Assembly (NCBI RefSeq): GCF_004138495.1 | Contig: NZ_ML142850.1 | Coordinates: forward strand, 425,788 to 442,190 | Length of the DNA: 16,403 nt | Reading direction: 5' to 3' | Source of the DNA: Phytoactinopolyspora endophytica | GTDB taxonomy: Bacteria; Actinomycetota; Actinomycetes; Jiangellales; Jiangellaceae | Part shown: positions 2,525-16,403 of the stretch, one piece after another | How positions within the stretch are numbered: position 1 is the first letter of the stretch | Layout: each line of letters begins with the position of its first letter | Notes under the pieces: generated by a model | Told to the model about the DNA's origin: nothing | Seen by the model: the letters and a program-made list of their open reading frames with translations, nothing else | The model's database searches: none | Translations under genes and position numbers: made by a program

Positions 2525-2553
2525 ATGTTACCAGGTTGTCCAACGTGTTATCC
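2525..2553 (-). promoter_or_regulatory. Promoter of regulator 1 with an operator in the spacer
   Basis: Reading the minus strand, TAACAT (2530-2525) forms a -10 box whose start point would fall on the GTG at 2518. The 17-base spacer holds ACGTTGGACAA (2546-2536), which matches the GntR/FadR-family operator consensus TNGTNNNACNA at every fixed position but the first. The region aligns base for base with the promoter of regulator 2 over GGACAA..TAACATGAC. The matching -35 position reads GGATAA and is poor. The remaining sequence 2547-2588, down to the sulfatase stop codon, shows no gene. Confidence 0.6.
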
Positions 2554-2588
2554 CTGGCCAGCCGCGGTCTTCCCGGTTCTGCCGGCCG

Positions 2589-4034
2589 TCAGCCGGGCAG
2601 GTCCTCGAACGCAGCGCTCGGGTTCGGCGCCGGAACGCGTGCCTGCACGGCGGACATCCAGTCGTGCAGGCACGCAGCGAGACTGTCGGCCCGTCGAAGC
2701 TCCTGGCTGTGAACGTTGCGTTCCTCGGCCACGTCCTCTCGAAGGTTGTACAGCTCGTCGTGCCCGTCCTCGAAGAAGTGGACGAGTTTCCAATCGCCGT
2801 CCCGGACGGCCGCAGCCGGGGTCCCGCCGTTGTTGCTGTAGTGCGGATAGTGCCAGAAGATCGGCCCCCGTTCGAATGGCTCACCCCGCAGCAGCGGCCC
2901 GAAGTCCACCCCATCGACCCTCGGCGCCGGCGACGGTGGCCGCAGACCCGCGGCGGCCAGGATGGTCGGGAAGAAGTCGGTGCTCGTCACGGGTTCACCG
3001 ATCTGCGTACCGGGCGTCGTGACACCAGGCCAGCGCACGATCAGTGGCTCCCGCACGCCGCCCTCGTACATCCAGCCCTTCCCCTCGGCCAGCGGCGCGT
3101 TGCAGGTCGGCGACCCGGTGGCCGACGACAGACCACCGTTGTCGGAGGTGAACACCACGATCGTATTCTCCGCCTGGCCGGTCTCCTCGAGCGCGTCCAG
3201 CAACCGGCCGACGTTCCGGTCGAGGTTCTCCACCATCGCCGCGTACGCCGGATCGCCTTGGACCAGGCGCCGTCGCACCGGCTGGTGCCGCTTGTGCCAG
3301 ACGGGATAACTCTCGCCGTCGGAGAACTCCTCCTGGTCGTCGAGCCCCAGCTCGGCCCGCTTCCGCTCGTACTTCTCGACGCCGTCCGGCGGCGCCTGGA
3401 TCGGCGTGTGCACGGCGTAGTGCCAGAGATTGAGGAAGAACGGTGTCTCGCCCGCGCTGCGGACGAGGTTGATCGCCTCGTCGGTCAGCCGGTCCGTGAG
3501 GTACTCACCGTCCGGCCCGTCGTCAAGAGCCGGGCATCCGTACGGACTGAAATAGCTTGCCGGCTGCCCACGGTGACTGCCACCGATGTTGACGTCGAAG
3601 CCGTGCCGGTCTGGCCAGGTACGGCGGTCCCCAAGATGCCACTTTCCCACATGCCACGTGCGGTACCCCGCATCCCGCAGCACTCGCGCCATCGTCACCT
3701 CGCTGAGCGGCAACGACGAGAAATACGGGACGTCACACAACCGGCCCACACCCTGGCCGCCGATGAACTGTGTCACCCCGACCCGCGCGGGATACCGACC
3801 GGTGAGAACGCTGGCTCGGGTGGGTGAGCAGACCGGCGCGGAAGCATAGGCGTCGGTGAACAGTGCGCCCTCGGCGGCCAGCGCGTCGAGCCGGGGCGTC
3901 TCGTAGAAGGAACTGCCATAGCAGCCGAGATCGCTCCAACCGAGGTCGTCGGCCAGCACGAGAACGACGTTGGGCGGTCGCTCACGTGCCTCATCGGCTC
4001 CCGTGGCACGATCTGAGTCCGGTCGGTCGACCAT
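2589..4034 (-). CDS. Type I (formylglycine-dependent) sulfatase, predicted cytosolic
   Basis: A 481-residue arylsulfatase-family hydrolase that removes sulfate esters. The activation motif CSPTR is at residues 69-73; C69 would be converted to formylglycine by a maturase not in this window. Metal and active-site positions of the alkaline-phosphatase fold are present: D29-D30, K131 and H133 in VGKWHLG, H209 in HYAVHTP, D298-N299 in TSDNGG, and K319 in EGKGWMYEGGVREP. The ATG at 4034 was chosen over an upstream in-frame ATG at 4124 because a GGAGGG ribosome site lies 6 bases before it. No signal peptide is visible, so it should act inside the cell on imported sugars. It lies 92 bases after the Gfo oxidoreductase gene on the same strand. 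Substrate position specificity cannot be read from the sequence. Confidence 0.95.
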   Translation of the reverse strand: MVDRPDSDRATGADEARERPPNVVLVLADDLGWSDLGCYGSSFYETPRLDALAAEGALFTDAYASAPVCSPTRASVLTGRYPARVGVTQFIGGQGVGRLCDVPYFSSLPLSEVTMARVLRDAGYRTWHVGKWHLGDRRTWPDRHGFDVNIGGSHRGQPASYFSPYGCPALDDGPDGEYLTDRLTDEAINLVRSAGETPFFLNLWHYAVHTPIQAPPDGVEKYERKRAELGLDDQEEFSDGESYPVWHKRHQPVRRRLVQGDPAYAAMVENLDRNVGRLLDALEETGQAENTIVVFTSDNGGLSSATGSPTCNAPLAEGKGWMYEGGVREPLIVRWPGVTTPGTQIGEPVTSTDFFPTILAAAGLRPPSPAPRVDGVDFGPLLRGEPFERGPIFWHYPHYSNNGGTPAAAVRDGDWKLVHFFEDGHDELYNLREDVAEERNVHSQELRRADSLAACLHDWMSAVQARVPAPNPSAAFEDLPG

Positions 4035-4040
4035 GCAGGT

Positions 4041-4046
4041 CCCTCC
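4041..4046 (-). promoter_or_regulatory. Ribosome-binding site that fixes the sulfatase start
   Basis: GGAGGG on the minus strand, 6 bases before the ATG at 4034. It supports that start rather than the in-frame ATGs at 4052 or 4124, neither of which gives a better N-terminus. Confidence 0.8.
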
Positions 4047-4067
4047 AGGCATTCGGGGCGGTACCAG

Positions 4068-4105
4068 TTGTCCGGCAACCAGGTTAGTCAGGGCGACGTG
4101 TCGCC
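4068..4105. promoter_or_regulatory. Operator-like site and GGCGAC-GT-GTCGCC palindrome before the sulfatase gene
   Basis: The gap between the Gfo oxidoreductase and the sulfatase gene contains TTGTCCGGCAA (plus strand 4068-4078), one mismatch from TNGTNNNACNA and itself flanked by bases resembling the regulator 1 operator (TACCAG then TTGTCC in both). At 4092-4105 is a 14-base palindrome, GGCGAC and GTCGCC around GT. It could be a local operator or a processing hairpin in an operon. No clear -10 and -35 pair was found, so an independent promoter is unproven. Confidence 0.35.
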
Positions 4106-4126
4106 GAGTGGGCGCAACCCGCAAGC

Positions 4127-5353
4127 TCAGCCGGCGGGCGGGTCTCCGAGATCCGGAATGGTCAGCTGCACGCCGCCCTGAAGCGCGGACTCGTGCGCGA
4201 TAATGCCCGGAATGCAGTTCCGCGCCGACTCCCAGACGTTGTTCGGCGGCAGGCTCCCCGCGTTCACCGCCTTCGCGAAGTCGTCGACCAGGAAATGGTG
4301 CGAGCCGGCGTGGCCGTTCGGCAGTTTCGCGAACTCCGGCGGCAGCCGGTCCACGGGGTGAACCGGTGTGTAGCCGGCATTGAAGTCTTCCTCCATCGCC
4401 TCGTGCACTGGCGGCGTGAACTCACCGCTGCGACGGTGATGGCCGGGGCTCAACTTCGAACTCGTCAGATACTGGAAGAGGTCGGCCTGGTCCTCGAGGT
4501 GCAGCGTGTTCCACACTCGGGCGTTGCTCTGCTCCTCGTAGCTTCCCTTGGTGCCGTACATGCTCATCCGTGACGACAACTGACCCCGCCAGCCGACTCT
4601 GCGGAACTCGTTGACACGGCACATGCCTCCGTCCGAGGTCCGGAACAACGCGGTCTCATTGCTGAAGTTGTTGTCCCACATACTGATGTCGGCGTCGAAG
4701 ACGCCGTCGTCCTCCCGGTCGACGTAGCCGAGGCACGACACCGACTCCATCCGCGCGCCCGTGACCGACAAGATCATGCTGACCGAGTGCGTCGGGTAGA
4801 ACATCGGCGGGAAGCTGGCCGTCCGCTTCCACTCCGGTCCCCCACTGCGCTGGTACGCCTCGTAGAACCCGTGGGACATGTCGTGCAGGTATTCGCCTTC
4901 ACCATAGACGAAGTGCCCGATGTCGCCGCGCCGGAACCGGTCCCGGCAGTAGAGCGTGGACGGCGTGTAGTAAGCCGTCTCGGCGACCATGTAGGTCAGC
5001 CCCGTGTCGCTGACTTTCTTCACCAGTGCAGACATGTCCTCCACGCTGATCGCCGCCGGAACGGCGCAGAAGACGTGCTTACTGGCTTCCAACGCCATCA
5101 TCGCGTGCTCGGCATGCATCCACCGCGGAGTGAAGATGGCGACCGCATCGACGTCGCTATCGCACAGCTCCTCGATAGACGCGTAGGTATCGTCGACGCC
5201 GTAGTGGCGGGCCCCACGCTCCAACCGCTCCGGCGCCACGTCCACGAGTGCCACATCGCTCACACCAGGATGGACCTGGAACAGCGGCACGAACGACGAC
5301 GCGAACTGCCCGAGGCCACATACTCCGATCTTGAACGTCCGACTTTGCACCAT
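4127..5353 (-). CDS. Gfo/Idh/MocA-family sugar oxidoreductase without the usual EKP lysine
   Basis: A 408-residue NAD(P)-dependent oxidoreductase of the glucose-fructose oxidoreductase/inositol dehydrogenase family, likely acting on a sugar or sugar derivative in the cytosol. The N-terminal Rossmann fold starts FKIGVCGLGQFASSF (residues 7-21), with an acidic residue after strand 2 (VALVDVAPERL). The C-terminal half has the family pattern YPTHSVSMIL, with H189 at the usual catalytic histidine position. The canonical EKP motif after strand 4 is replaced: HVFCAVPAAIS has A97-V98-P99, so the normal catalytic lysine is missing. A GGAGGA ribosome site lies 8 bases before the ATG at 5353. It is followed by the sulfatase gene in the same direction and diverges from the binding-protein gene. 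The reaction may be altered or the enzyme may use another base. Confidence 0.9.
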   Translation of the reverse strand: MVQSRTFKIGVCGLGQFASSFVPLFQVHPGVSDVALVDVAPERLERGARHYGVDDTYASIEELCDSDVDAVAIFTPRWMHAEHAMMALEASKHVFCAVPAAISVEDMSALVKKVSDTGLTYMVAETAYYTPSTLYCRDRFRRGDIGHFVYGEGEYLHDMSHGFYEAYQRSGGPEWKRTASFPPMFYPTHSVSMILSVTGARMESVSCLGYVDREDDGVFDADISMWDNNFSNETALFRTSDGGMCRVNEFRRVGWRGQLSSRMSMYGTKGSYEEQSNARVWNTLHLEDQADLFQYLTSSKLSPGHHRRSGEFTPPVHEAMEEDFNAGYTPVHPVDRLPPEFAKLPNGHAGSHHFLVDDFAKAVNAGSLPPNNVWESARNCIPGIIAHESALQGGVQLTIPDLGDPPAG

Positions 5354-5395
5354 CAGCCAGGTCCTCCGCGTGTAGATCCCGAAACATACATCTGT

Positions 5396-5422
5396 TGATC
5401 AGACAGGTCCTAGACCCTTATA
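5396..5422 (-). promoter_or_regulatory. Promoter and putative operator of the oxidoreductase-sulfatase unit
   Basis: The minus strand has TATAAG at 5422-5417 as a -10 candidate. Just downstream, at the predicted start of transcription, is the imperfect palindrome CTGTTGATCAGACAG (5392-5406, plus strand). It contains TGATCAGACAG, a two-mismatch relative of TNGTNNNACNA that shares ATCAGACA with the site before the FAD oxidoreductase. No convincing -35 is seen. The rest of the 252-base divergent gap 5354-5605 contains no gene. Confidence 0.5.
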
Positions 5423-5524
5423 GCCTTCCCACCCAATACCGGCACACAGCATCTCGGAAATGCCGCCCTCGGCAGTGCGCGCCAGTTCGGCGCGTGCCAG
5501 CTCTTTCAACCAAAGAAATCATCC

Positions 5525-5572
5525 TTGACATAAGCGGAAAGACTTCGCCACACTAACACAGTCGTCAGACAA
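5525..5572 (+). promoter_or_regulatory. Promoter and operator of the binding-protein gene
   Basis: A consensus -35 TTGACA (5525-5530) is followed after 18 bases by CACACT (5549-5554) as a probable -10. The predicted start point near 5561 coincides with TCGTCAGACAA (5562-5572), a perfect match to TNGTNNNACNA. The longer block GTCGTCAGACAAGCAG (5561-5576) is repeated exactly at 14692-14707 before regulator 2. A repressor bound here would block initiation or early elongation. Confidence 0.65.
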
Positions 5573-5595
5573 GCAGGCAACCAGATTAGCGGTCG

Positions 5596-5601
5596 AGGAG
5601 G
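5596..5601 (+). promoter_or_regulatory. Strong ribosome-binding site of the binding-protein gene
   Basis: AGGAGG ends 4 bases before the ATG at 5606. It fixes that start and implies high expression, as is usual for transporter binding proteins. Confidence 0.75.
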
Positions 5602-5605
5602 ACCC

Positions 5606-7156
5606 ATGAACAGATCGAGTAACAGACTGTTCACCGCAGGCGGCAACGGCCGAGTTTCGGCGGGCCCCAGCCGGAGAGACTTCCTGCGTACGACGGGCAT
5701 ACTCGGAGCCGCCGGGCTTTCGGGCATCCTCGCCAGCTGCGGAGGTGACGACCCGCCTTCGTCGGAGGGGAACGCGTCCTCGCCCAGCAGCGGGGGCGGC
5801 CAAGGCGGCGGAACGGTGCGCGTGTGGACCGTCCCCACCGGCCCCGAAGACGAGCAGTTCCAGCGCGCCCAGTTCGACCAGTTCGCTCAGGACAACCCGG
5901 ACGTCGAGGTCGAGCTTCAGTTCTTCCCGCCGGACCAGTATGCGAACGCGATGCAACTCGCCTTCACCGGTGGTCAGGACACGCCGGATGTGTTCCGCCA
6001 GTCCAGTGGGCAAGGCCTCGATCTACGCGGAGCCCACGGCCGCGGGTGGGTCCGTCCGATCACGGAGTTCCTCACGGACGATTTCACGGCTCGGTTCCCC
6101 GATTACGTCTACGATCCCGACCGCAGCCCGCTGTACATCGACGACGAGGCGTGGGGCGTCCCGAATGCCGACCCGGCGGTCAACGGCTCGCGGCTGCTCT
6201 ACTACAACATCGATGTGCTCGGGGAGTTCGGCTTCGACGCGCCGCCTTCCACCTGGTCGGAGATGCGGGAGATGGCCGCGAAGATAACGACGGACGGTGG
6301 TGGCCGGGTGTACGGCACCGCGCCGGTCGGAGGCGCATTGAAGACTGCCATGATCCTGCAGAACCTCGCCGGTCCGCAGCCGTACCGCTCGGACGCGGAG
6401 CCGCCTATCAGTCTGCTCACCGGAGAGCCGGCCATGTCCGAGTCGTCGATGGTCGAGATGGTCGAGTTGCTGCAGTCCATGAACAGCGACGAGATCTTCA
6501 CACCAGGCTGGGAGACGTGGGACCCGACGCAGGTGCTGCAGCAGATGGCCGCCGGTCGCCTCGGGATGTATATCTTCCCGGTCTTCCACGCTGCGGAGCT
6601 GCGTAAGGCCAACGCCGACCTGAACCTCGGCATCGCCTCGCCGCCGGTGCCCGACAGTGGACGCGCGGGCTCGCGCGCCCCCGCGAACGGGGTGATGGCA
6701 TGGTGGATGATGAGCTCCGAGGCGCGCAGCCCGGAGGCCGCGTGGCGCGTCCTGGACTTCTTCGGCTCGGTCGACTTCCAGCGTGCCGCGTTCGAGGACC
6801 AGGGCCAGATCTCCATCATGCCCGGCGTCTACGAGGGCATCGAGGTGGACGAGGACACCACGCGCATCCGCGAGGTCGCCGCTGAGGTCGTCCGTAACCG
6901 ACCGGAGCCCACCGACGTCGACCCCGCGGTCGAGGAGTTCTACGAGAACCTGGTCAGCAATGGTCCGCGCCCCAACCCGCTGGAGCGCATCACCGAGGCG
7001 ATCACCCGCGGTACCGACTTCCGGGCGGCCGCCGAGGCCTACGACGAAGAGCTCGCCGAAACCATCGAGGCGGAGCTCGAGCGCAGCGACCTCGGCACCA
7101 TGGACGCGTTCGTCTTTCCCGACTGGGACCCCTTGGAGGAGTACTCCGCCTCCTGA
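5606..7156 (+). CDS. Extracellular solute-binding lipoprotein of a carbohydrate ABC transporter
   Basis: A 516-residue substrate-binding protein that would capture a sugar or oligosaccharide outside the membrane and hand it to ABC permeases. The N-terminus has a twin-arginine motif SRRDFLR (residues 22-28), a hydrophobic core, and a lipobox LASC with C45 as the lipidated residue. A Gly/Ser linker follows. The mature part begins GTVRVWTVPTGPEDEQFQRA and includes the DVEVELQFFPPDQYANAMQLAF pattern of family 1 binding proteins (PF01547/PF13416). It is longer than the usual 420-450 residues. No permease or ATPase gene follows; instead the beta-helix protein comes 177 bases downstream. The nearest permease is at 15485, under a matching operator, so the transporter may be split over two units. 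The ligand is unknown. Confidence 0.94.
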   Translation: MNRSSNRLFTAGGNGRVSAGPSRRDFLRTTGILGAAGLSGILASCGGDDPPSSEGNASSPSSGGGQGGGTVRVWTVPTGPEDEQFQRAQFDQFAQDNPDVEVELQFFPPDQYANAMQLAFTGGQDTPDVFRQSSGQGLDLRGAHGRGWVRPITEFLTDDFTARFPDYVYDPDRSPLYIDDEAWGVPNADPAVNGSRLLYYNIDVLGEFGFDAPPSTWSEMREMAAKITTDGGGRVYGTAPVGGALKTAMILQNLAGPQPYRSDAEPPISLLTGEPAMSESSMVEMVELLQSMNSDEIFTPGWETWDPTQVLQQMAAGRLGMYIFPVFHAAELRKANADLNLGIASPPVPDSGRAGSRAPANGVMAWWMMSSEARSPEAAWRVLDFFGSVDFQRAAFEDQGQISIMPGVYEGIEVDEDTTRIREVAAEVVRNRPEPTDVDPAVEEFYENLVSNGPRPNPLERITEAITRGTDFRAAAEAYDEELAETIEAELERSDLGTMDAFVFPDWDPLEEYSAS

Positions 7157-7173
7157 GCCGGCGCGCAGACCAG

Positions 7174-7204
7174 GAGCCAGGCGGCTCTCGGGGCGTCGTG
7201 CCCC
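7174..7204 (+). terminator. Tandem hairpins after the binding-protein gene
   Basis: Two short stems follow the stop codon: GAGCC/GGCTC (7174-7187) and GGGGC-GTCGT-GCCCC (7190-7204), the second followed by TCTGTCT. This could be a weak terminator or an RNA-stabilising structure that lowers expression of the downstream gene relative to the binding protein. There is no true U-tract. Apart from this and the operator-like site next to it, the gap 7157-7333 shows no gene. Confidence 0.45.
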
Positions 7205-7206
7205 TC

Positions 7207-7218
7207 TGTCTGGCGACA
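7207..7218. promoter_or_regulatory. Operator-like palindrome before the beta-helix gene
   Basis: TGTCTGGCGACA is an inverted repeat TGTC-TGGC-GACA. Its reverse complement differs by one base from the core GTCGTCAGACA seen at 5561 and 14692, but it has two mismatches to TNGTNNNACNA. No good promoter was found next to it, so a function is uncertain. Confidence 0.3.
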
Positions 7219-7333
7219 CCAGCCAAGACCTACCGGCCACCACGACGGCGGCTCCTGTCTGCGCGGCCTGGATCACTGCCCCGACAACGGTTCCAACGCG
7301 TCTGTCGACTCTCAGGATCGGGAGAAATCTACG

Positions 7334-10300
7334 ATGTCGAAAACCCGTGGTCTTGTCGTACTACTCATCTCGGCCGTTCTCCTACTCTTTCTCACCGCCC
7401 CGCAAGCAAGCTCGCAGTCGTCCGAAACTCCGCCGACGGTGTACGTCGCGACCGACGGCGACGACAGCAATGACGGCTCGGAAAACCAGCCGTTCGCCAC
7501 GCTCACCAAGGCCAGAGATCACGTACGGACACTGATCGCCGACGGCATGACCGACGATGTGCAGATACTGGTCCGCGAGGGCCAATACCACCTCGACGAG
7601 CCGCTCAGTCTCGACGAGAGTGACTCCGGCCGCGATGGGCACACCGTCCGTTGGTCCAGCCATCCGGGCGAGACGGCCGAGATCATCGGCGCCAGGCCGA
7701 TCGAAGGGACATGGGAACCCACCGACGACCCGAACATCCAGCGCATCGCCATTCCAGAGGTGGCCGACGGGTCGTGGCGGTTCGACCAGATCTTCGTCGA
7801 CGGGGAGCGGCGCGCCAAGGCCCGTTTCCCGAACGACGGCTACCTGCTCACCGACGGCGGCGCGGGGAACCTACGGGAGTTCTCCTTCCGAGACGGCGAC
7901 CTTCCCGAGTGGCCGGTCACAACCGGTGCTCAGGCCGTCGTCTGGAGCAGCGATTTCTTCGCCGACACTGTCGGCGTCGACGGAATCGACCACGGATCGG
8001 ACTCGATCACCGTCACGGACGACCTGCTCCGCCCGATCGAGCAGGGCCATCAGCGTCGCTACTTCGTTCAGGGGTTCAAGGAGGCTCTCGACGCGCCCGG
8101 CGAGTTCCACCTGGCTGAGGGCGAGGGCTACCTGTACTACTGGCCGGCCGAGGAGTCGCTCGAGGACGCCACCGTGCTGGCTCCGACCGTCGACAATGTC
8201 GTCGAGGTCGTCGGGTCCTCCCCCGACCAGCCCGTCCACGACGTGACGTTCGAGAACCTGCACCTGTCGACCTCCACGTTCTCCCCGTACTTCAACGAGA
8301 CGCACGGCATCGAGTGGAACCGGCCCGCCCCGGCCAACACGCCGGGTGTCGTCTACCTGGAGAACGCGCGTGCCGTCACGGTCAGCGACAACGTGATCTC
8401 CAACGCCGGATTCAACGCGGTCTCGCTGCACAAGTCCGCGGAGGAGAACGTCGTGGCACGCAACGAGATGCGCGACTTCGGCTACCACGGCGTCCTGCTC
8501 ATGGGGACGATCAGCGGTGAGTCCGATGACGACGGGAACCAGGTCTATGACAACCGGGGCAACGTCATCTCGGACAACCACCTGCACGACGGCGGCGTGC
8601 TGGCCCCACACGGCGGTGGTGTCTTCATCCATCAGAGTGGGGAGAACGTCGTCGAGCACAACGTCGTCCACGACATGCCCCGCTATGGGATCGCCGCCAA
8701 AGGCGGCCGGTCGCCGGACTTCATCGACCAGCTGACCAGCCGGGACAACACCATCCGGTACAACGACGTCTCAACGGTCATGCAGGACACGGACGACGCC
8801 GGCGGGATCACACTCACGACGACCGGGCCTGGCAACCTGGTCGAGAGCAACCGCGTCCACGACATCACCGCCCCGTACGTCTCCAAGGGCCAGGCCTACG
8901 GCATCTACCTCGACAACAACACCTCGCATGCCACGGTGCGGAACAACCTGGTACACGGAATCGACGCGGTTCTGCCCACCGCGTTGCATGGCCCGATCAA
9001 CGCCAAGGGCCCACACAACACGATCGACAACAACATCCTGGTCCAGAACACGGAGCGCAGCTCGGGATTCGGCATCCGGCACGCGCAGCACGGCCGGAAC
9101 GACGCGATCGACCACCTGTACACGCGCAACGTGATGGCGCTGCAGGCCGAGGGGGCCGCGTTCTACGAATTCCTGAACTTCGAGGAGGACAACCTCGAGC
9201 TCTCCGATGACAACGTCATCTACAACGCCGCGGACAGCTACACCATCCGCGGTCTTCCCGGAGTCGAGAATCTCGACGACTGGCTGACATTCATGGGTAG
9301 CCGGTATGACCAGAACTCCGTCTTCGACGATCCTCAGTTCCGCGACGCCGGCTCCGGCGACTACGTCCTCTCCCCCGAGTCTCCGGCGTTCGCACTGGGC
9401 ATCGAGGACATCGACCTGTCGGTGATCGGGGCCACGGCCGAGGCACCGTTCGCTCCGGGCGACCTGGCACGCATACACGTCACGGCGGGCGGGCAGGTCT
9501 CCCGAGGCGACGTCGGCGTCGGCGACGACCTCGAGCTGGCGGCGACGGCCCGGGACGACACGGGGCTACTGTTCCCCGACTCGGACGTCTCGCTCAGCTT
9601 CGCCAGCGTCGACAGCTCGATCGCGACTGTGGACGGCTCCGGCGTGGTATCCGGCCACGCGGCAGGCGTCACAGCCGTCACCGTCACCGCGGATGCCGGA
9701 GACGCCGGGCAGGCCGAAGTCTTGTTCCCGATCTACGTGGGTGACTCGGTCGACTCCATCGAGCTGAGCGCGGACACCGACGTCCTCGCTGTGGACCAGC
9801 AGGCCTCACTGCGCACGGTCGCACACACATCGCTCGGGACGAGCCGGCGACTCGACCCGGGCGAGGACGGCGTGACGTTCTCCTCCGACGACGAGAGCGT
9901 GGCCACCGTCGACGACAATGGCACGGTCACCGCGCTGCAGCCGGGAACGGCGACGATCGAGTCCGGGTACACCTCCGGAAGCCAGAGCGTCACCGACACG
10001 CTGACCGTCACGGTGCACGACAAGGTCCTCGACAGCGTCCTTGCCGGCACCGAGACCCTCGGCGTCGAGGAGGGCGGGTCGACCCCGATCACGGTCTCCG
10101 CGCTGTGGTCCGACGGAACGGACGTCGACCTGTCGGAGATCGACTTGAGCTACTCGAGCGGCGACGAGTCCGTCGCCACGGTCGACACCGACGGCACACT
10201 CACCGGTGTCGCTCCGGGCACGGCCACGATCCGCGTCACCGGCAGCTGGAACGGGATCGAACGGCACCACCAGTTCACCAACTACGTCGTGCGGGACACC

Positions 10301-12175
10301 GCGCTGCCGGACGGCTGGATCCACACCGACGTCGGCGACTGGGACGGTCAGGAGAGCTATGTCGAACACGACGACGGCCGCTGGGTGCTCAACAGCAACG
10401 GCATCGACGCATGGGGCGAGGAGGACCGGGTGACCTATGCCCACCAGAACGTGGACCTGGCCGACTACCCGAACGGGTTCTCCGTCGTCGCGACGGTGGA
10501 GTCGGTGGCGGAGATCCATACCAACTCGATGGCCGGGCTGATGATCCGGGACGACCTCACACCGTCGGCGACGAACGTCGCGCCGAGGATCAGGCCCGGC
10601 GGGGTGATGCCGGTCGGGTACCGGCAGAGCGCCGGCGGCGGCACGGTCAACGCCTCGGGCAACCCCCAGACGGACTTCCCCGCCACGCTGAAGCTGACCT
10701 ACGTGGACGGCATCCTCACCAGCTCCTATCTCGACGGCTCGGAATGGGTGGAGTCCGCCCAGGTCACGGTCGACATGTCGGACGAGGTGGGGGTGGGCAT
10801 CTGGAACGCCGCCGCCGACCCGACGGGACTGTCGCAAGCCGTCTTCAGCGACGTGCAGATCGTCGCCGAGGACCCGGTGCCGGCCGATCCCGAGACACGG
10901 GCCGAACTCGAGCGAGAGATCACGGTCGCCTCCGCCTTCCATGCCACGAGCACCGAAGGCGACGGCGACGGTGAGTATCCGTCCGAGGCGATGGCGGAGC
11001 TGCACACCGCCATCGAGGCGGCGCGCAGCCTGCTGGCCGACGAGAACGCCACGCAAAGCCAGGTCGTCCGCGAGACCGAGTCGTTGACCAGTGCCATCAC
11101 GCACTTCCAGAACGCACGCGTGGTGCCGAGAGTCTTCACACTGGACTTCGAGGACGACCCCGTGGGGCAGCCTCCGGAGTCGGTCTACACGACCACGCCG
11201 GACAACGGCACCGTCGCCGTCGCCGAAGGCGGCTATGACGAGCGGCAGGCCATGGTGATCGAAGGAACGGAGACGACCTACCGGGTCTTCGCCGACGTCC
11301 CGCCTTCCGAGGCGGACCGGACGACCTACTCGATGCGGTTCATGCCCGAGCAGAACTCGGTTCCGTTCGTGTACCGGCTGGGCTCGGCCGACGGCGAGGA
11401 GCAGATGATCCACCTCTGGTTCCTGGGCAACGGCACCATCCGCCTGATCCACGGCGACGGCTCACAGGAGATCAACATCGCCTCCTACAGCCCCGATCAG
11501 TGGTACACCGTGGACGTCACCGCCGATATGACCAACAAGACGTTCGATCTCGAGCTCGACGACGAGCCGATCATCTCCGACGTGCCGTTCCGGCATCCGG
11601 TCGAGTCGATCGAGACGGTGGAGTGGCGTGCCGGCGACGGACGGTTCTGGATCGATCACGTCACCGCCATCCCCGTGCAGGACACGGATGCGGCCGTCGA
11701 GTCGATCACCGTCGACGGAGCGGAGCTGGAGGACTTCGACCCGGACGAGACCAGCTACGTCGTCGAGCTTCCACCGGCCTCACCCGTGCCGGCGGTCGAG
11801 TCGACGCCACGGCATCCGCAGGGCTCGGCCTACGTCGCCACGCCCGACGAGGTGCCCGGCACAGCGTGGGTGGTCGGTATCTCCGAAGACCGCACCACGC
11901 ACCGTTCCTACGAGATCGAGTTCACCTGCGGCACGCACTCCCCAGAGGAGACGGTCGTCGTCGGCGACGTGGACAGCGACGTGCCGAACTACTCCCGCGC
12001 GGACGGCTGCACGTTTCTCGACCTCGTGGACGACGAAGGGCCGTTCGCCGACCACGGCGAGCTGGTCCGAACCGTACGGTCGCTGGCGAAACAGTGGTAC
12101 GACGACGGGATCCTCTCCCGGCAGGAGTACCAGACGCTGGTGATGTCCGCGGCGCAAGCCGGGACGAACGAGTGA
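7334..12175 (+). CDS. Secreted multidomain right-handed beta-helix protein, probable polysaccharide-active enzyme
   Basis: A 1613-residue exported protein. A signal peptide (KTRGLVVLLISAVLLLFL then APQA) starts it, with GGGAG 9 bases upstream of the ATG. Residues 36-70 hold YVATDGDDSNDGSENQPFAT, the opening of many carbohydrate-active beta-helix enzymes. Repeats such as NVVEHNVVHDM and HATVRNNLVHGI to about residue 600 form the helix. Three Ig-like (Big_2) repeats follow at about 714-985, then a jelly-roll domain (about 988-1175), a helical FIVAR-like segment (about 1181-1262), a second jelly-roll (about 1265-1450), a cadherin-like sandwich (about 1455-1535) and a Cys-containing C-terminal tag (about 1555-1613). 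The arrangement resembles GH141/pectate-lyase-like proteins. Catalytic residues were not identified, so lyase or glycosidase remains open. Its strongly acidic composition is notable. Confidence 0.88.
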   Translation: MSKTRGLVVLLISAVLLLFLTAPQASSQSSETPPTVYVATDGDDSNDGSENQPFATLTKARDHVRTLIADGMTDDVQILVREGQYHLDEPLSLDESDSGRDGHTVRWSSHPGETAEIIGARPIEGTWEPTDDPNIQRIAIPEVADGSWRFDQIFVDGERRAKARFPNDGYLLTDGGAGNLREFSFRDGDLPEWPVTTGAQAVVWSSDFFADTVGVDGIDHGSDSITVTDDLLRPIEQGHQRRYFVQGFKEALDAPGEFHLAEGEGYLYYWPAEESLEDATVLAPTVDNVVEVVGSSPDQPVHDVTFENLHLSTSTFSPYFNETHGIEWNRPAPANTPGVVYLENARAVTVSDNVISNAGFNAVSLHKSAEENVVARNEMRDFGYHGVLLMGTISGESDDDGNQVYDNRGNVISDNHLHDGGVLAPHGGGVFIHQSGENVVEHNVVHDMPRYGIAAKGGRSPDFIDQLTSRDNTIRYNDVSTVMQDTDDAGGITLTTTGPGNLVESNRVHDITAPYVSKGQAYGIYLDNNTSHATVRNNLVHGIDAVLPTALHGPINAKGPHNTIDNNILVQNTERSSGFGIRHAQHGRNDAIDHLYTRNVMALQAEGAAFYEFLNFEEDNLELSDDNVIYNAADSYTIRGLPGVENLDDWLTFMGSRYDQNSVFDDPQFRDAGSGDYVLSPESPAFALGIEDIDLSVIGATAEAPFAPGDLARIHVTAGGQVSRGDVGVGDDLELAATARDDTGLLFPDSDVSLSFASVDSSIATVDGSGVVSGHAAGVTAVTVTADAGDAGQAEVLFPIYVGDSVDSIELSADTDVLAVDQQASLRTVAHTSLGTSRRLDPGEDGVTFSSDDESVATVDDNGTVTALQPGTATIESGYTSGSQSVTDTLTVTVHDKVLDSVLAGTETLGVEEGGSTPITVSALWSDGTDVDLSEIDLSYSSGDESVATVDTDGTLTGVAPGTATIRVTGSWNGIERHHQFTNYVVRDTALPDGWIHTDVGDWDGQESYVEHDDGRWVLNSNGIDAWGEEDRVTYAHQNVDLADYPNGFSVVATVESVAEIHTNSMAGLMIRDDLTPSATNVAPRIRPGGVMPVGYRQSAGGGTVNASGNPQTDFPATLKLTYVDGILTSSYLDGSEWVESAQVTVDMSDEVGVGIWNAAADPTGLSQAVFSDVQIVAEDPVPADPETRAELEREITVASAFHATSTEGDGDGEYPSEAMAELHTAIEAARSLLADENATQSQVVRETESLTSAITHFQNARVVPRVFTLDFEDDPVGQPPESVYTTTPDNGTVAVAEGGYDERQAMVIEGTETTYRVFADVPPSEADRTTYSMRFMPEQNSVPFVYRLGSADGEEQMIHLWFLGNGTIRLIHGDGSQEINIASYSPDQWYTVDVTADMTNKTFDLELDDEPIISDVPFRHPVESIETVEWRAGDGRFWIDHVTAIPVQDTDAAVESITVDGAELEDFDPDETSYVVELPPASPVPAVESTPRHPQGSAYVATPDEVPGTAWVVGISEDRTTHRSYEIEFTCGTHSPEETVVVGDVDSDVPNYSRADGCTFLDLVDDEGPFADHGELVRTVRSLAKQWYDDGILSRQEYQTLVMSAAQAGTNE
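9471..10290 (+). repeat. Three tandem Ig-like (Big_2) domain repeats within the beta-helix protein
   Basis: The protein repeats a pattern of about 90 residues three times: SSIATVDGSGVVSGHAAGVT, ESVATVDDNGTVTALQPGTA and ESVATVDTDGTLTGVAPGTA. Each is preceded by an S-D-rich strand. This is the bacterial Ig-like group 2 signature, normally a spacer or adhesion module on surface proteins. Repeats 2 and 3 are the most alike, suggesting the later duplication. Confidence 0.8.
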
Positions 12176-12215
12176 GGCGTGACGTCACCGGTGCGGACAT
12201 GACCGACAGAAGAAG

Positions 12216-12257
12216 CGGCTGGGCGGCCGGAGGTCGATTCCTCCGGCCGCCCAGCCG
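12216..12257. terminator. Perfect 18-bp stem terminator between convergent genes
   Basis: The arms CGGCTGGGCGGCCGGAGG (12216-12233) and CCTCCGGCCGCCCAGCCG (12240-12257) are exact reverse complements around the 6-base loop TCGATT. It lies 40 bases after the beta-helix stop and 16 bases after the FAD gene stop, so it can serve both. On the minus strand it is followed by CTTCTTCTGTC, a modest pyrimidine-rich tail; on the plus strand there is no U-tract, as is common for actinobacterial hairpin terminators. Confidence 0.88.
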
Positions 12258-12273
12258 TCCGTCCGCGACGTTG

Positions 12274-14499
12274 TCAGACGTCGTAGACGCGGATCGCGAC
12301 CACGTGTGCCCGCTCGCTTCCGTTGGTGGACTCGACCACCACGCGGACGCTCTCCGCGTGGACCGGACCGTCGAGCCGGTGAACGCGGCGCCGGCGGCGG
12401 TTGTCCCGCTCCTGCGCGACGGTGATCCACTCGCCGTCGGCCAAAGCCTCGATCCGGTAGTCCTTGACCAGCGCCGGGATGACATCGAATGGCGTGTGCG
12501 TGCGGTGCAGGTTGTTGAGGTCCTCGTTGACGTCGTCGTCGAAGATGACCTGGATCTCGCCGACCTCGACCGGTGCGGGCCAGCTCAGCCGGACCCATTC
12601 CGCGCGTCCCGGGCGGATCGGCTCGGATACCCACATCTGCGGCCCGCCGAAGGGCCGCGCGTAGCCACCGATCACGTTCTCGGGCCGGAATGCGGACGTG
12701 GTGACCCGCACGCGCAGGCATGGCGCCTGCCTGGGGATGACCCGCCACTCTCGCAGCGGCTGCGGATACCCGAGGTCGCCGGGAAGCTCGATCCGTTCGA
12801 ACCCGATCACGCCCGGAAAGTCGTCAGCCATAGCCAGCGATACCTGTGTGTTCCGCTCGATCACCACGAAGGCGTTGCGGGCCGGCTCCGGTTCCCAGCT
12901 CACTGGAAGCGTGACCCACTGCCCTTGGCCGGCAGGCACCGGCACGCTCGCCTTCGCCACCGGCTCGGCTGGGACGTAGTTCTGGGCCCGGCCGGTCGAG
13001 TACACGGTGACCGACAGCTCGGTGTCGGCCGCCGCGTCCACCAGCACGTCGATGCCGTCGAGACGCGGATCCACCGGGACGATGGCACCGATGTCCGCGT
13101 CGAGCGCCTGGCGACGTCCCGCCGTGTCGACCGCGAGGTCGGTGAGCGTGCTCGACGCCGTCACGGTCGCTGTCAGCGCGTGGTCGGCCGGATCCTCGTA
13201 GGCCATCCCCAGAATCGGCGCGTCCTGGCGCAGCATCGTCAGCTGCAGCTCCCGCAGGTGTCGGGCGTGCAGCTCACGTGGGGCGACGTCGTTCGCCACG
13301 CACAACGCGGCGGCGGATCCGGCGGCCTCCCCGGTAGCCGCACACGTCGCCATCACGCGCGTCGTACCGAACGCCACGTGGCTGGCGCTGATGTCCCGGC
13401 CGGCGAAGAGCAGGTTGCTCACGTTCGACGAGTACAGGGACCGCAACGGGATGTGGTAGTTCCCGTCCGGCAGCCAGTGCTTGGAGCCGGCTTCGTTCGC
13501 GTACACGCCGCCCACCGGGTGCAGGTCGATCGACCAGCCGCCGAAGGCGACCCGGTCGTCGAAGTCGGCCTGGACGAGGATGTCGTTCTGGGTGAGGGTG
13601 TAGTCGCCGACGAACCGTCGGTACTCGCGCTTGCCCGGGATCGACGCGACCCACTCCAGGGTCAGCGTGTCCGCATCGAACTGTCCGGAGTTCTTGATGT
13701 AGTCCCAGATTCCGTAGATGACGCCCCAGAGCTCGTCCCGGATCCGCTCGTTGTCGTGGACCGAGTCGAGCTCGCCGCCCCATTCGATCCACCAGTTGTA
13801 GCAGCCGTCCCGTTCGGTGCTGATGATGCGCCGCTCGGGGATCGAGGTGGTGGAGATGTCCACAGCGAAGCTCGGCGGCACGTACTTCACCGGCCGGCCG
13901 ATGTCCTTCGAGTAGAAGAGCATGGTACTGCCGAGCGTCTTCGAGTCCGCGACCTCCGGCGCCCACGGCTCCCCATACTCGTCGCTGGACTCCCTGCCTA
14001 CGCGATATCGCGCTCCCGCCAGGTGGCCGACCAAGCCATCCCCGGTGCAGTCGAGGAAGACCGGCGCACGAAACTCGATGCTCCGCTCAGAGCCGGTCAT
14101 CCAGCCCGTCACCGACTCGACGATCCGCGCGTCGTCCGGGCCGTCGGCCTGGACGGAACGGACGTCGGTGTTCAGGAACAGCTGGATCCCCGGCTCCGCG
14201 CGCACGGCTTCCAGGACCACCAGATCCCAGTAGTACGGGTTGCCCTCGGGGTTGCGGTACTGGTTCTCCACCAGCATCTCCCCGATGATCCCGTTTTCCC
14301 GGGCGAAGCGCTGCCGGCCATTCGCGGTGGCACCGCAGATCCAGACCCGGACCTCGCTCGACGAGTTGCCGCCGAGGACGGGCCGGCTGTTGATCAACGC
14401 GACGGACCGTCCCAGCCGCGCGGCCGCGATGGCGGCGCAGACCCCCGCCAGACCTCCACCGACCACGACAACATCGGCGTTCACGGATTCCTCGCGCAT
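12274..14499 (-). CDS. FAD-dependent oxidoreductase with C-terminal beta-sandwich domains
   Basis: A 741-residue flavoenzyme of the FAD_oxidored family (PF12831). The dinucleotide fold is plain at residues 9-30 (DVVVVGGGLAGVCAAIAAARLG, quoted in part as GGGLAG), followed by the family block INSRPVLGGNSSSEVRVW (36-53). The closing FAD motif LLFAGRDISASHVAFGTTRV is near residues 362-381, with ATCAATGEAAGSAAALC after it. Beyond about residue 430 lie roughly 300 residues predicted as beta-strands in two domains, the last discoidin-like (VGEIQVIFDDDVNEDLNN). No signal peptide is visible, so it is probably cytosolic. A GGAG site lies 6 bases before the ATG at 14499; a GTG six codons in is an alternative. 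It is convergent with the beta-helix gene and divergent from regulator 2. The substrate, presumably a sugar, is unknown. Confidence 0.92.
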   Translation of the reverse strand: MREESVNADVVVVGGGLAGVCAAIAAARLGRSVALINSRPVLGGNSSSEVRVWICGATANGRQRFARENGIIGEMLVENQYRNPEGNPYYWDLVVLEAVRAEPGIQLFLNTDVRSVQADGPDDARIVESVTGWMTGSERSIEFRAPVFLDCTGDGLVGHLAGARYRVGRESSDEYGEPWAPEVADSKTLGSTMLFYSKDIGRPVKYVPPSFAVDISTTSIPERRIISTERDGCYNWWIEWGGELDSVHDNERIRDELWGVIYGIWDYIKNSGQFDADTLTLEWVASIPGKREYRRFVGDYTLTQNDILVQADFDDRVAFGGWSIDLHPVGGVYANEAGSKHWLPDGNYHIPLRSLYSSNVSNLLFAGRDISASHVAFGTTRVMATCAATGEAAGSAAALCVANDVAPRELHARHLRELQLTMLRQDAPILGMAYEDPADHALTATVTASSTLTDLAVDTAGRRQALDADIGAIVPVDPRLDGIDVLVDAAADTELSVTVYSTGRAQNYVPAEPVAKASVPVPAGQGQWVTLPVSWEPEPARNAFVVIERNTQVSLAMADDFPGVIGFERIELPGDLGYPQPLREWRVIPRQAPCLRVRVTTSAFRPENVIGGYARPFGGPQMWVSEPIRPGRAEWVRLSWPAPVEVGEIQVIFDDDVNEDLNNLHRTHTPFDVIPALVKDYRIEALADGEWITVAQERDNRRRRRVHRLDGPVHAESVRVVVESTNGSERAHVVAIRVYDV

Positions 14500-14513
14500 A
14501 CATCACTCCAAAG

Positions 14514-14561
14514 TTGTCTGATGACCTGTCTACTATGCTGTGCTCGAATCGACACTGTCAA
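14514..14561 (-). promoter_or_regulatory. Promoter and operator of the FAD oxidoreductase gene
   Basis: On the minus strand a consensus -35 TTGACA (14561-14556) is followed after 18 bases by CATAGT (14537-14532). The predicted start point, near 14525, is followed at once by TCATCAGACAA (14524-14514), one mismatch from TNGTNNNACNA and one base different from the sites at 5562 and 14693. The operator ends 14 bases before the ATG at 14499. Confidence 0.65.
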
Positions 14562-14685
14562 GACAAGAGGTCGCCTCGTACCGCATGGACGGATGGCGCG
14601 AATCGCCTCCGCAACCGTCAACTGCGCGGCCCGGGAGGCGGAAACCACCATCGCGGACAACCGGTCGGACGAGTTCATCCGTTAC

Positions 14686-14714
14686 TTGAAAGTCGTCAGA
14701 CAAGCAGTTAACAT
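14686..14714 (+). promoter_or_regulatory. Promoter of regulator 2 with an operator in the spacer
   Basis: TTGAAA (14686-14691), a 17-base spacer and TAACAT (14709-14714) form a good promoter whose start point would be the GTG at 14722. The spacer contains TCGTCAGACAA (14693-14703), a perfect match to TNGTNNNACNA. The block GTCGTCAGACAAGCAG (14692-14707) is identical to that at 5561-5576. The rest of the divergent gap (14562-14685) has only a 7-bp inverted repeat, CGCCTCC (14604-14610) and GGAGGCG (14634-14640), and no gene. Confidence 0.7.
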
Positions 14715-14721
14715 GACGACC

Positions 14722-15441
14722 GTGTCGTTTGAACCCCTGCGGAAGCCGCAGACTCGGTCCCAGCTGGTGGTCTCTCAGATCGAAGATCAGATTCGCGCCG
14801 GCGAACTCACCCATGGCGAAAAGCTCGCGAGCGAGACCCAACTCGCTCACCAGTTCGGCGTCAGCCGCAGCGTGGTCCGCGAAGCGCTGCGGCTCCTTGA
14901 GGCCATGGGCCTGATCAGCTCACGACACGGCAGCGGCAGTTACGTCAGCAACAACACCGAACGCATCGTCTCGCGCATCCTGTCTCTGTCCGTCATGCCC
15001 GACGAGACGTCGGTTCACGAGCTCTTCGAGTTTCGCGAGTCGCTGGAGAGCGACGCCGCACGCCTGGCCGCTCAGCGAAGGTCCGAGGGCGACGTCGACA
15101 CCATCCTTCGACGGCTCGAGGCCAATGCGTCCGCGGCGGCAGCGCGAGACGCTGAGGAGTTCACCCGGACCGACTGGGAGTTCCACGCCGCCATCTCTGA
15201 GGCGGCAGGCAATCGCTACCTCGCTGTGGTCCTCAAGGCGGTACGAGAGATGCAGTACGACGTCGTCAACCTGCTGACCACGGACACCGGGTCCGTCGAC
15301 CAGGCCGTGGACCAGCACCGACGGATCGTCAAGGCCGTGATCGAAGGATCCGCGGAAGGAGCCGAGAGCGCCGCGAGGATACACATCCAGACGACCGCCG
15401 CATGTTGCATCGAGCGCGCCATCGCGTCGATGCAGGACTGA
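14722..15441 (+). CDS. FadR-type GntR regulator with FCD domain (regulator 2)
   Basis: A 239-residue regulator with an N-terminal winged helix (LAHQFGVSRSVVREALRLLE, wing GSGSYV) and a C-terminal FCD domain. With the GTG start at 14722 the FCD site residues are D151, H155, H199 and H221, exactly the numbers in regulator 1. The two proteins are very similar throughout, sharing for example VSRSVVREA, LLEAMGL, VREMQ and QHRRI. I preferred GTG 14722 to the in-frame ATG at 14713 because the -10 box TAACAT overlaps that ATG and because regulator 1 starts at the matching GTG. It lies 43 bases before the permease gene in the same direction. It probably represses its own promoter and the locus; the effector is unknown. 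Confidence 0.95.
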   Translation: MSFEPLRKPQTRSQLVVSQIEDQIRAGELTHGEKLASETQLAHQFGVSRSVVREALRLLEAMGLISSRHGSGSYVSNNTERIVSRILSLSVMPDETSVHELFEFRESLESDAARLAAQRRSEGDVDTILRRLEANASAAAARDAEEFTRTDWEFHAAISEAAGNRYLAVVLKAVREMQYDVVNLLTTDTGSVDQAVDQHRRIVKAVIEGSAEGAESAARIHIQTTAACCIERAIASMQD

Positions 15442-15484: not shown

Positions 15485-16403
15485 GTGAGCTCTGCGCGCC
15501 TGACCGAAGCAACCGGTATGGCGCCACCGCGACGCAGACCACAGAGCCTGAGATCGCGCATGTGGCGATACCGCTGGCACTATCTGTTCATCCTGCCGAT
15601 GGTGGTGCTGTTCGTCGCGTTCACCGCGTGGCCGATGGTGGCCAGCTGGGTCTATTCCGTGTTCCGGTGGTCCGGCTACGGACCGATGAACGACTTCGTC
15701 GGTCTGGCGAACTATCGGGAAGCGTTCAGCGACCCGCTCTTCTGGAACGCCTTCCGTAACACCAGCGTCTTCGCGCTGTTCGCGATCTTCGTACAGTTGC
15801 CTCTCGCCCTGCTGATCGCGATGGTGTTGAACAACAGCGCGCTCAAGGGCCGCAACATCTACCGGGTGCTGCTGTTCCTGCCCGTGGTCACCACCACGGC
15901 GGTGGTCGGCGTCGTCTTCGCCATCTTGCTCGACCCCTCGGGCGGCCCGCTCAACGAGCTGCTGCTCAGCCGGGAGTTCCTCGACCGGCCCATCAACTTC
16001 CTCGGCAGCGAGAGTCTCGCTCTGCCGACCGTGCTGGTCATCGACATGTGGAAGGGCATCGGCGTCACCATCATCTACTGGCTCGCCGCGTTGCAGACCA
16101 TCCCCACCGAGCTGTACGAGGCGGCACGGATCGACGGGGCCGGCCGCCGGCAGATGTTCCTGCGGATCACCGTGCCGCTGCTGGTTCCCCTCGGCGTGGT
16201 CATCCTGCTCCTGACCTTCGTCACCAGCCTGAACGCCTTCGACATCGTCAAGGTCATGACCGACGGCGGTCCGAACGGCGCCACGGACATCATCCAGACC
16301 TACATCTTCCGCTACGCCTTCGACCCCGAGGGCACGCCGCGTTTCGGATTCGCCTCGGCCGTCGGGATCCTCTTCGGCGTCGCCGTCATGCTGCTGAGCC
16401 CAC
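15485..16403 (+). CDS. Carbohydrate ABC transporter permease, CUT1 MalF/UgpA-type, 3' end beyond window
   Basis: At least 306 residues of an integral membrane permease; the frame stays open to the right edge, so the end lies just outside. The GTG start follows a GGGAGG ribosome site by 9 bases; an in-frame ATG 11 codons in is an alternative. A basic N-terminus leads into WHYLFILPMVVLFVAFTAWP, the standard first span of MalF-like permeases, with further spans at VFALFAIFVQLPLALLIAMV and VLLFLPVVTTTAVVGVVFAI. The cytoplasmic EAA loop that contacts the ATPase reads ELYEAARIDGAGRRQMFLRI, near residue 212. PF00528 is the expected domain. It is probably co-transcribed with regulator 2. A second permease (MalG-type) is expected downstream. 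It is the likely membrane partner of the lipoprotein at 5606. Confidence 0.95.
   Translation, partial: MSSARLTEATGMAPPRRRPQSLRSRMWRYRWHYLFILPMVVLFVAFTAWPMVASWVYSVFRWSGYGPMNDFVGLANYREAFSDPLFWNAFRNTSVFALFAIFVQLPLALLIAMVLNNSALKGRNIYRVLLFLPVVTTTAVVGVVFAILLDPSGGPLNELLLSREFLDRPINFLGSESLALPTVLVIDMWKGIGVTIIYWLAALQTIPTELYEAARIDGAGRRQMFLRITVPLLVPLGVVILLLTFVTSLNAFDIVKVMTDGGPNGATDIIQTYIFRYAFDPEGTPRFGFASAVGILFGVAVMLLSP

Follow-up and report, generated by a model that had tools for sequence, protein, structure and literature searches.

A putative operator shared by promoters of a sulfatase and sugar-transport gene cluster with two FCD-type GntR regulators in Phytoactinopolyspora endophytica

The stretch of DNA analysed here, hereafter called the window, comprises 16,403 nucleotides (nt) of the genome of Phytoactinopolyspora endophytica (bases 425788-442190 of contig C2) and carries a cluster of sulfatase, oxidoreductase and ATP-binding cassette (ABC) transporter genes together with two paralogous GntR-family regulators with an FCD domain (FadR subfamily), termed regulator 1 and regulator 2. 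Short sites in front of several of these genes are likely, judged by sequence, to be operators of a local repressor regulon with autoregulation, common to both paralogs. What we take to be a real local FCD operator is predicted at three promoters, those of the solute-binding protein gene, the flavin adenine dinucleotide (FAD)-dependent oxidoreductase gene and regulator 2, and probably at more, in an arrangement that is of an ordinary textbook kind. An initial annotation of the window, in which five sites in front of five transcription units were regarded as one shared operator, proved right in kind and too generous in detail.

Candidate operators and their distribution in the genome

As a working operator we propose TTGTC-N-GAC/T-N-A, in which two GTC half-sites would flank a single central base to form an imperfect palindrome (coordinates of all sites are listed in Table 1). 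The promoters of the binding-protein gene and of regulator 2 have 17 identical bases in common, the longest such run in 300 shuffled pairs being 12, and their sites, aligned in a common direction, read TTGTCTGACGA; TCAGACA of the binding-protein site recurs in the site of the Gfo/Idh/MocA-type oxidoreductase gene (Gfo). The sharper motif TTGTCTGAYSA has exactly three exact matches in the 7.6-Mb genome (G+C about 66% in the stretches read), all of them in window promoters, namely those of the binding protein, the FAD oxidoreductase and regulator 2. With up to one mismatch 131 matches were counted in the genome versus 92 for the reversed control. The looser form TYGTCWGAYRA was found at 11 genome places, three of them in the window (17 strand rows versus 9 for the reversed control). 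Among the eight places elsewhere, L089 and L090 lie within predicted genes and L093 overlaps a gene end, L084, L092 and L094 are situated in open frames and L091 at the junction of two small open frames, and L088 appears intergenic.

The individual sites were assessed by a leave-one-out test, in which a symmetric matrix was built from the sites of the initial annotation minus the tested one, and equally long stretches, drawn from 182,135 bases of the genome outside the window, served as background; some of these stretches were fetched for containing a similar string, which makes the test conservative, and a few overlap. Only 4 of 5750 background stretches were as good as the region of 5562 (binding protein), 3 of 6144 as good as that of 14693 (regulator 2) and 36 of 6870 as good as that of 14514 (FAD), and these three sites are clearly non-random for their promoter regions. 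A site at 4068 upstream of the sulfatase gene, absent from the initial annotation, followed with 121 of 7784 and scored better than both weak sites, 5396 before Gfo (538 of 5743) and 2536 before regulator 1. In the regulator 1 region the top match was found at 2523 and not at 2536, and even this was equalled by 809 of 10581 background stretches. For a further candidate at 7206, before the gene of a beta-helix protein, 373 of 4009 stretches were as good. Scanning with a matrix against the genomic background, which had been proposed as a check on the five sites, thus bore out 5562, 14693 and 14514, left 5396 weak and gave no support to 2536.

The regulator 1 site is possible by its position, not by its sequence. 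The distance from operator centre to start codon is 23 nt at regulator 1 (2536) and 24 nt at regulator 2, and 2536 lies within a 24-base stretch with 19 identities to the regulator 2 promoter, among them a -10-like TAACAT, for which 40 of 1000 shuffled pairs were as good; when the comparison was widened, the two regulator promoters aligned best over a different stretch (p 0.077). When seven promoter regions were aligned in pairs (42 alignments), the smallest p values against shuffles were obtained for sulfatase and binding protein (0.003) and for FAD and regulator 2 (0.01), followed by binding protein and regulator 2 (0.013) and binding protein and FAD (0.03). The original claim of a single regulon from position 1805 to the right edge of the window is partly supported: the candidate FCD-type operator is strong at three promoters, plausible and suggestive at Gfo and suggestive at the sulfatase gene, weak before the beta-helix gene and unsupported at regulator 1.

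The initial annotation had defined its operator by the pattern TNGTNNNACNA. All five strings are present between genes as reported, with no mismatch at 5562 and 14693, one at 2536 and 14514 and two at 5396. As a discriminating motif, however, the pattern failed, being close to chance in the window with the majority of its perfect matches inside genes (4 of 6, the other 2 being intergenic). At up to one mismatch 59 window matches were counted against 47.1 +/- 6.2 in shuffles, and at least 59 were reached in 7 of 200 shuffles. Intergenic DNA makes up 6.9% of the window and holds 8 of 53 one-mismatch and 16 of 342 two-mismatch matches; intergenic matches at up to one mismatch (10 of 59) are modestly enriched and those at two mismatches are not. 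As evidence for a shared operator the pattern was rejected.

Promoter geometry and the two regulators

The hexamer TTGACA occurs three times in the window, both strands included, and two of these copies begin exactly 37 nt before an operator of the same orientation, one at the binding-protein gene and one at the FAD gene. If the predicted promoter is right, the FAD operator would lie over the transcription start, and by analogy of spacing the same is predicted for the binding-protein operator, although the promoter of this gene was not listed by a promoter scan of 13 kb and its -10 box is poor. Regulator 2 would, given its predicted promoter, be transcribed from about the GTG at 14722, which is probably also its translation start, giving a protein of 239 amino acids (aa), since the database copy P0001 has 239 aa and begins there too. 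The operator positions would fit repression rather than activation.

Palindrome-like stretches with TTGACA at their head were also observed at two other places in the genome, C5:354436-354478 and C17:156476-156518, both reading TTGACACGCYATRGCRTGTC; these likely represent a promoter type of another regulator.

Regulators 1 and 2 are 61% identical overall, with 56 of 75 positions (75%) identical in residues 1-75 and 85 of 155 (55%) in residues 76-230, and the recognition segment GVSRSVVREA is the same in both. As far as can be told from the protein sequences, both are expected to read the same site. Asp151, His155, His199 and His221 (numbering of the first sequence) are invariant in nine homologs, and we take them to be the likely metal-binding set of the FCD domain. 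Close relatives are few: in a database of 5.8 billion sequences, of which the 8000 best word-sharing candidates were scored, nine proteins were found at E <= 1e-30, the two of the window included. P0002 is 73% identical to regulator 2 and groups with it, and P0004 and P0005 are, by a small margin, closer to regulator 1 (59% and 61%) than to regulator 2 (57% and 54%). Given this separate grouping, only slight on the regulator 1 side, the pair seems to predate the present genome and not to be a recent duplicate.

Operators of the FadR subfamily were surveyed in PMC4494728, which gives the consensus GTM-N(0-1)-KAC with typically 3 nt between GT and AC. The sites described here resemble it in the GTM-N-KAC palindrome with GT and AC 3 nt apart, and the predicted inclusion of a regulator gene in its own regulon has its counterpart there. 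The consensus is matched at 5562 and 14693 (GTCTGAC), and there is one departure each at 14514 and 5396 (GTCTGAT, the latter read on the minus strand), at 2536 (GTCCAAC) and at 4068 (GTCCGGC). The half-site TTGT fits the TKGT box of the survey, whereas the other half-site, TCGT, does not. Both regulators carry Thr, Ser, Val and Gly at helix-turn-helix (HTH) positions 28, 39, 40 and 59, which are correlated with operator bases in the survey, the Pfam register being assumed to equal its numbering; Gly at position 59 is linked there to a G/C pair adjoining the GT box, and the adjoining base here is T in one half-site and C in the other, a mixed fit to these rules. Divergent units were described in the same source as often having two separate sites, each near its own start ('separate double site' divergon), and operators near the starts are found here as well, firmly between FAD and regulator 2 and less so between Gfo and binding protein. 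The present case differs in that two FCD paralogs occur in one cluster, and the genomes searched offered no orthologous regulon for comparison.

In the mechanism we favour, the two paralogous repressors, with nearly the same DNA-reading parts, would bind the operator as dimers. At the binding-protein and FAD promoters the site would directly follow the predicted -10 box, so that a bound repressor would obstruct RNA polymerase where transcription begins; at the regulator 2 promoter it would fall within the predicted -35/-10 spacer and cause self-repression. Binding of a degradation product of the substrate, probably a sugar acid, to the FCD domain would release the repressors, upon which the genes for uptake, desulfation and oxidation would be turned on together. 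Given an FCD domain and the oxidising enzymes of the cluster, a sugar acid or lactone is probably the natural candidate for this inducer. A further, rather unlikely elaboration would be that two old FCD paralogs with near-identical DNA-reading heads and diverged sensor domains share the operator set of a sulfated-glycan cluster, with release of the transport, oxidation and regulator genes requiring two different breakdown products or proceeding in a graded order; if true, that order would be set by operator strength and by position, over the transcription start or in the promoter spacer.

The genes controlled by ExuR and UxuR in Escherichia coli concern hexuronates and are scattered over several places of the genome; unlike there, both regulators described here lie together in a cluster that also encodes sulfatases and a sugar ABC transporter. 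ExuR and UxuR are FCD-type GntR paralogs with a common catabolic gene set, self-repression and cross-regulation, for which heterodimers were proposed (PMC9369180), and they offer a precedent for two FCD paralogs acting on the same operators. The sites provide a concrete candidate operator for a pair of GntR/FCD regulators of which very few close relatives are recorded, and they would tie a cluster of sulfatase, ABC transporter and oxidoreductase genes into one control unit, which may aid in finding its substrate. Existing knowledge of GntR regulation is left unchanged.

Counter-evidence and alternative readings

Several results weigh against a common operator of the two paralogs throughout the cluster. 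The matrix is partly circular, being built from the sites that were found; the binding-protein and regulator 2 sites train each other, and leaving one out only reduces this circularity. Two of the five sites of the initial annotation are weak or unsupported by the leave-one-out matrix, and strings outside promoters, at 12271 in the 3' end of the FAD gene (score 14.4) and at 10775 in the beta-helix gene (12.4), outscore those at 5396 (10.3) and 2536 (10.1), the former also that at 4068 (13.2). The promoter scan of 13 kb yielded two promoter-like pairs, at FAD and regulator 2, against 1.2 +/- 1.2 in shuffles, which by number is no more than chance. TTGACA followed by TCNGAC at a gap of 26-36 was found at 11 genome places, including the two of the window, versus 10 for the reversed control; so loose a combination shows no enrichment, and what counts is solely the identical spacing found at two operators. 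Gel-shift probes for CrgA, a LysR-family protein of Pseudomonas aeruginosa, contain a near-identical palindrome, ATTGTCTGACAAT (PMC6422896), so that the letters of the palindrome alone do not name the binder; other literature matches to the literal string TTGTCTGACA appeared, among the matches listed, unrelated by title. At E <= 0.001 regulator 2 has 34 matches in the genome, itself and regulator 1 among them, so that the binder could also be a different FCD protein.

Comparison with other genomes likewise brought no confirmation. Neither the 21 other family genomes (threshold E <= 1e-50) nor the 392 other class genomes (E <= 1e-45, seven candidates scored per genome) gave a match to regulator 2; a search of the order covered the same 22 genomes as that of the family and added little. 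A scan of genome contigs, which reaches close relatives only, returned a 29% relative as its only hit. The regulator pair is rare among the genomes searched. With a profile of nine relatives, 159 of 393 class genomes gave matches at E <= 1e-35, of which the top one in any other genome had 1.9e-48, and these are distant FCD proteins; 1876 plasmid records match regulator 2, all with less than 60% identity. Orthologs of the FAD oxidoreductase were found in 22 of 393 genomes, this one included, and 19 other FAD loci, taken with 1.5 kb on each side, held no match to either regulator. The single site above 12 at these loci was that of L046 (15.6), inside the matched span of the FAD gene, and L042, L043, L048, L049, L051 and L053 have matches of 11.5, which in this matrix exceed the scores of 2536 and 5396. 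Beyond the window, the binding protein has relatives with 32-38% identity. Upstream regions of 47 distant FCD genes were also scored, 18 (L011-L028) of the 32 own-genome matches that remain once the two regulators are set aside, and 29 loci from the class (L055-L083), with L054 dropped as being regulator 1 itself and the start of the match used in place of the true start codon. Six had an upstream match at p < 0.05 (top scores 13.7, 12.7 and 12.6), none as strong as that of regulator 2, and four perfect matches to TNGTNNNACNA were counted versus 1.1 expected, which makes the generic family pattern slightly over-represented there.

How far the operator is shared is the question on which the alternatives chiefly differ. 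There is about an even chance that only three or four promoters truly share the operator (those of the binding protein, FAD, regulator 2 and perhaps Gfo), that regulator 1 and the sulfatase gene are expressed by read-through from Gfo, and that 2536 and 4068 are chance or decayed sites. The leave-one-out results at 2536 and 5396 point this way, as does the layout of Gfo, sulfatase and regulator 1, which follow each other head to tail on the minus strand with gaps of 92 and 70 nt and may form one leftward operon with a single transcript, in which case the five transcription units of the initial annotation may be four; moreover, neither TTGACA nor a promoter-like pair was found upstream of regulator 1, the sulfatase gene or Gfo by window search and promoter scan. 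Against such a restriction stand the position of 2536 at the start-codon distance of regulator 2 and within the 19 aligned identities of 24, and the small number of background stretches that match the 4068 region.

It is improbable that the operators are instead divided between the paralogs, sites with TTGTCC (regulator 1, sulfatase) belonging to regulator 1 and those of the binding protein, FAD, regulator 2 and Gfo, which read TTGTCT or CTGTCT, to regulator 2. The sites do fall into these two spellings, and the grouping of P0002 with regulator 2 and, slightly, of P0004 and P0005 with regulator 1 would agree with a division of labour, but the recognition segment and residues 28, 39, 40 and 59 are the same in both regulators, and neither TTGTCC site equals the three strong ones in strength. 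Least probable is that the sites have nothing to do with each other and match a loose pattern by chance. Such a view could draw on TNGTNNNACNA, which is not clearly enriched and has perfect matches inside genes, and on the 9-mer TCAGACARG, which is not over-represented in the genome (37 places, 3 in the window, against 47 for the reversed control); it is countered by the 17-base identity, the confinement of TTGTCTGAYSA to the window and the identical promoter spacing, and for 5562, 14514 and 14693 the counter-evidence is already strong, whereas chance may still account for 2536 and 7206. A regulon of both paralogs, firmest at 5562, 14514 and 14693, remains the reading we prefer.

Gene neighbourhood and likely substrate

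Table 1. Genes, candidate operators and promoter elements of the window (positions counted from its first base).
Feature	Position	Strand	Remarks
Regulator 1, GntR family with FCD domain (FadR subfamily), 237 aa	1805..2518	-	PF00392 and PF07729 above cut-off
Weak candidate operator of regulator 1	2536..2546	+	TTGTCCAACGT
Sulfatase	2589..4034	-	PF00884
Candidate operator upstream of sulfatase	4068..4078	+	TTGTCCGGCAA
Gfo/Idh/MocA-type oxidoreductase	4127..5353	-	PF01408; heads possible leftward run Gfo-sulfatase-regulator 1
Suggestive operator of Gfo gene	5396..5406	-	CTGTCTGATCA
Probable -35 box of binding-protein promoter	5525..5530	+	TTGACA
Strong operator of binding-protein gene (predicted)	5562..5572	+	TCGTCAGACAA
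ABC-transporter solute-binding protein	5606..7156	+	PF01547
Weak candidate site before beta-helix gene	7206..7216	+	CTGTCTGGCGA
1613-aa protein, right-handed beta helix and Big_2 domains	7334..12175	+	
FAD-dependent oxidoreductase	12274..14499	-	PF12831
Strong operator of FAD oxidoreductase gene (predicted)	14514..14524	+	TTGTCTGATGA
Candidate FAD promoter	14532..14561	-	TTGACA, 18 nt, CATAGT
Candidate regulator 2 promoter	14686..14714	+	TTGAAA, 17 nt, TAACAT; operator within spacer
Strong operator of regulator 2, autoregulation (predicted)	14693..14703	+	TCGTCAGACAA
Regulator 2, GntR family with FCD domain	14713..15441	+	PF00392 and PF07729 above cut-off
ABC sugar-transporter permease, cut by window edge	15485..16403	+	PF00528

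The right edge of the window, at which the initial annotation had ended the regulon, need not be its limit. Open frames on the plus strand, picked by codon composition, extend about 7.7 kb past the window and the permease that follows regulator 2 (C2:442191-449882, L030:191-7692), and the regulon probably continues through them via further sulfatases and oxidation genes. The position of the first frame (L030:191-937), directly after the cut permease, suggests a second permease, and the run includes two more sulfatases, an aldo/keto reductase, an amidohydrolase and a 758-aa open frame whose start overlaps the preceding gene and for which no Pfam match at E <= 1e-6 and no PDB match was found. 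Beyond it lie an oppositely oriented second ABC transporter and an IclR regulator; the promoter region of this second ABC operon contains only a weak match (L030:11375, score 9.1).

For the sulfatase at 2589-4034 the best solved relative is 6ust, named N-acetylgalactosamine 6-sulfate sulfatase, followed by a k-carrageenan sulfatase. The N-terminal part of the 1613-aa beta-helix protein is related to 9rx2 and to the glycoside hydrolase BT_1002 (5mqp), and the protein is possibly a polysaccharide-degrading enzyme of the cluster. The downstream amidohydrolase is related to 4dlf, which is presumably of the sugar-lactonase type. The three sulfatases, the BT_1002-related beta-helix protein, the 4dlf-related amidohydrolase and the aldo/keto reductase together suggest as substrate a sulfated deoxy- or galactose-type glycan that would be taken up and oxidatively degraded. 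The solute-binding protein gave a weak match to a twin-arginine translocation (TAT)-type signal (PF10518, below its cut-off).

Where the beta-helix and FAD genes converge, a very strong inverted repeat of 18 pairs, 16 of them G-C, with a loop of 6 was observed between their ends at 12216-12257, which is probably a terminator common to both genes. A second FAD oxidoreductase, 61% identical to the FAD protein of the window, is encoded on the same contig about 90 kb away (C2:346547-348811).

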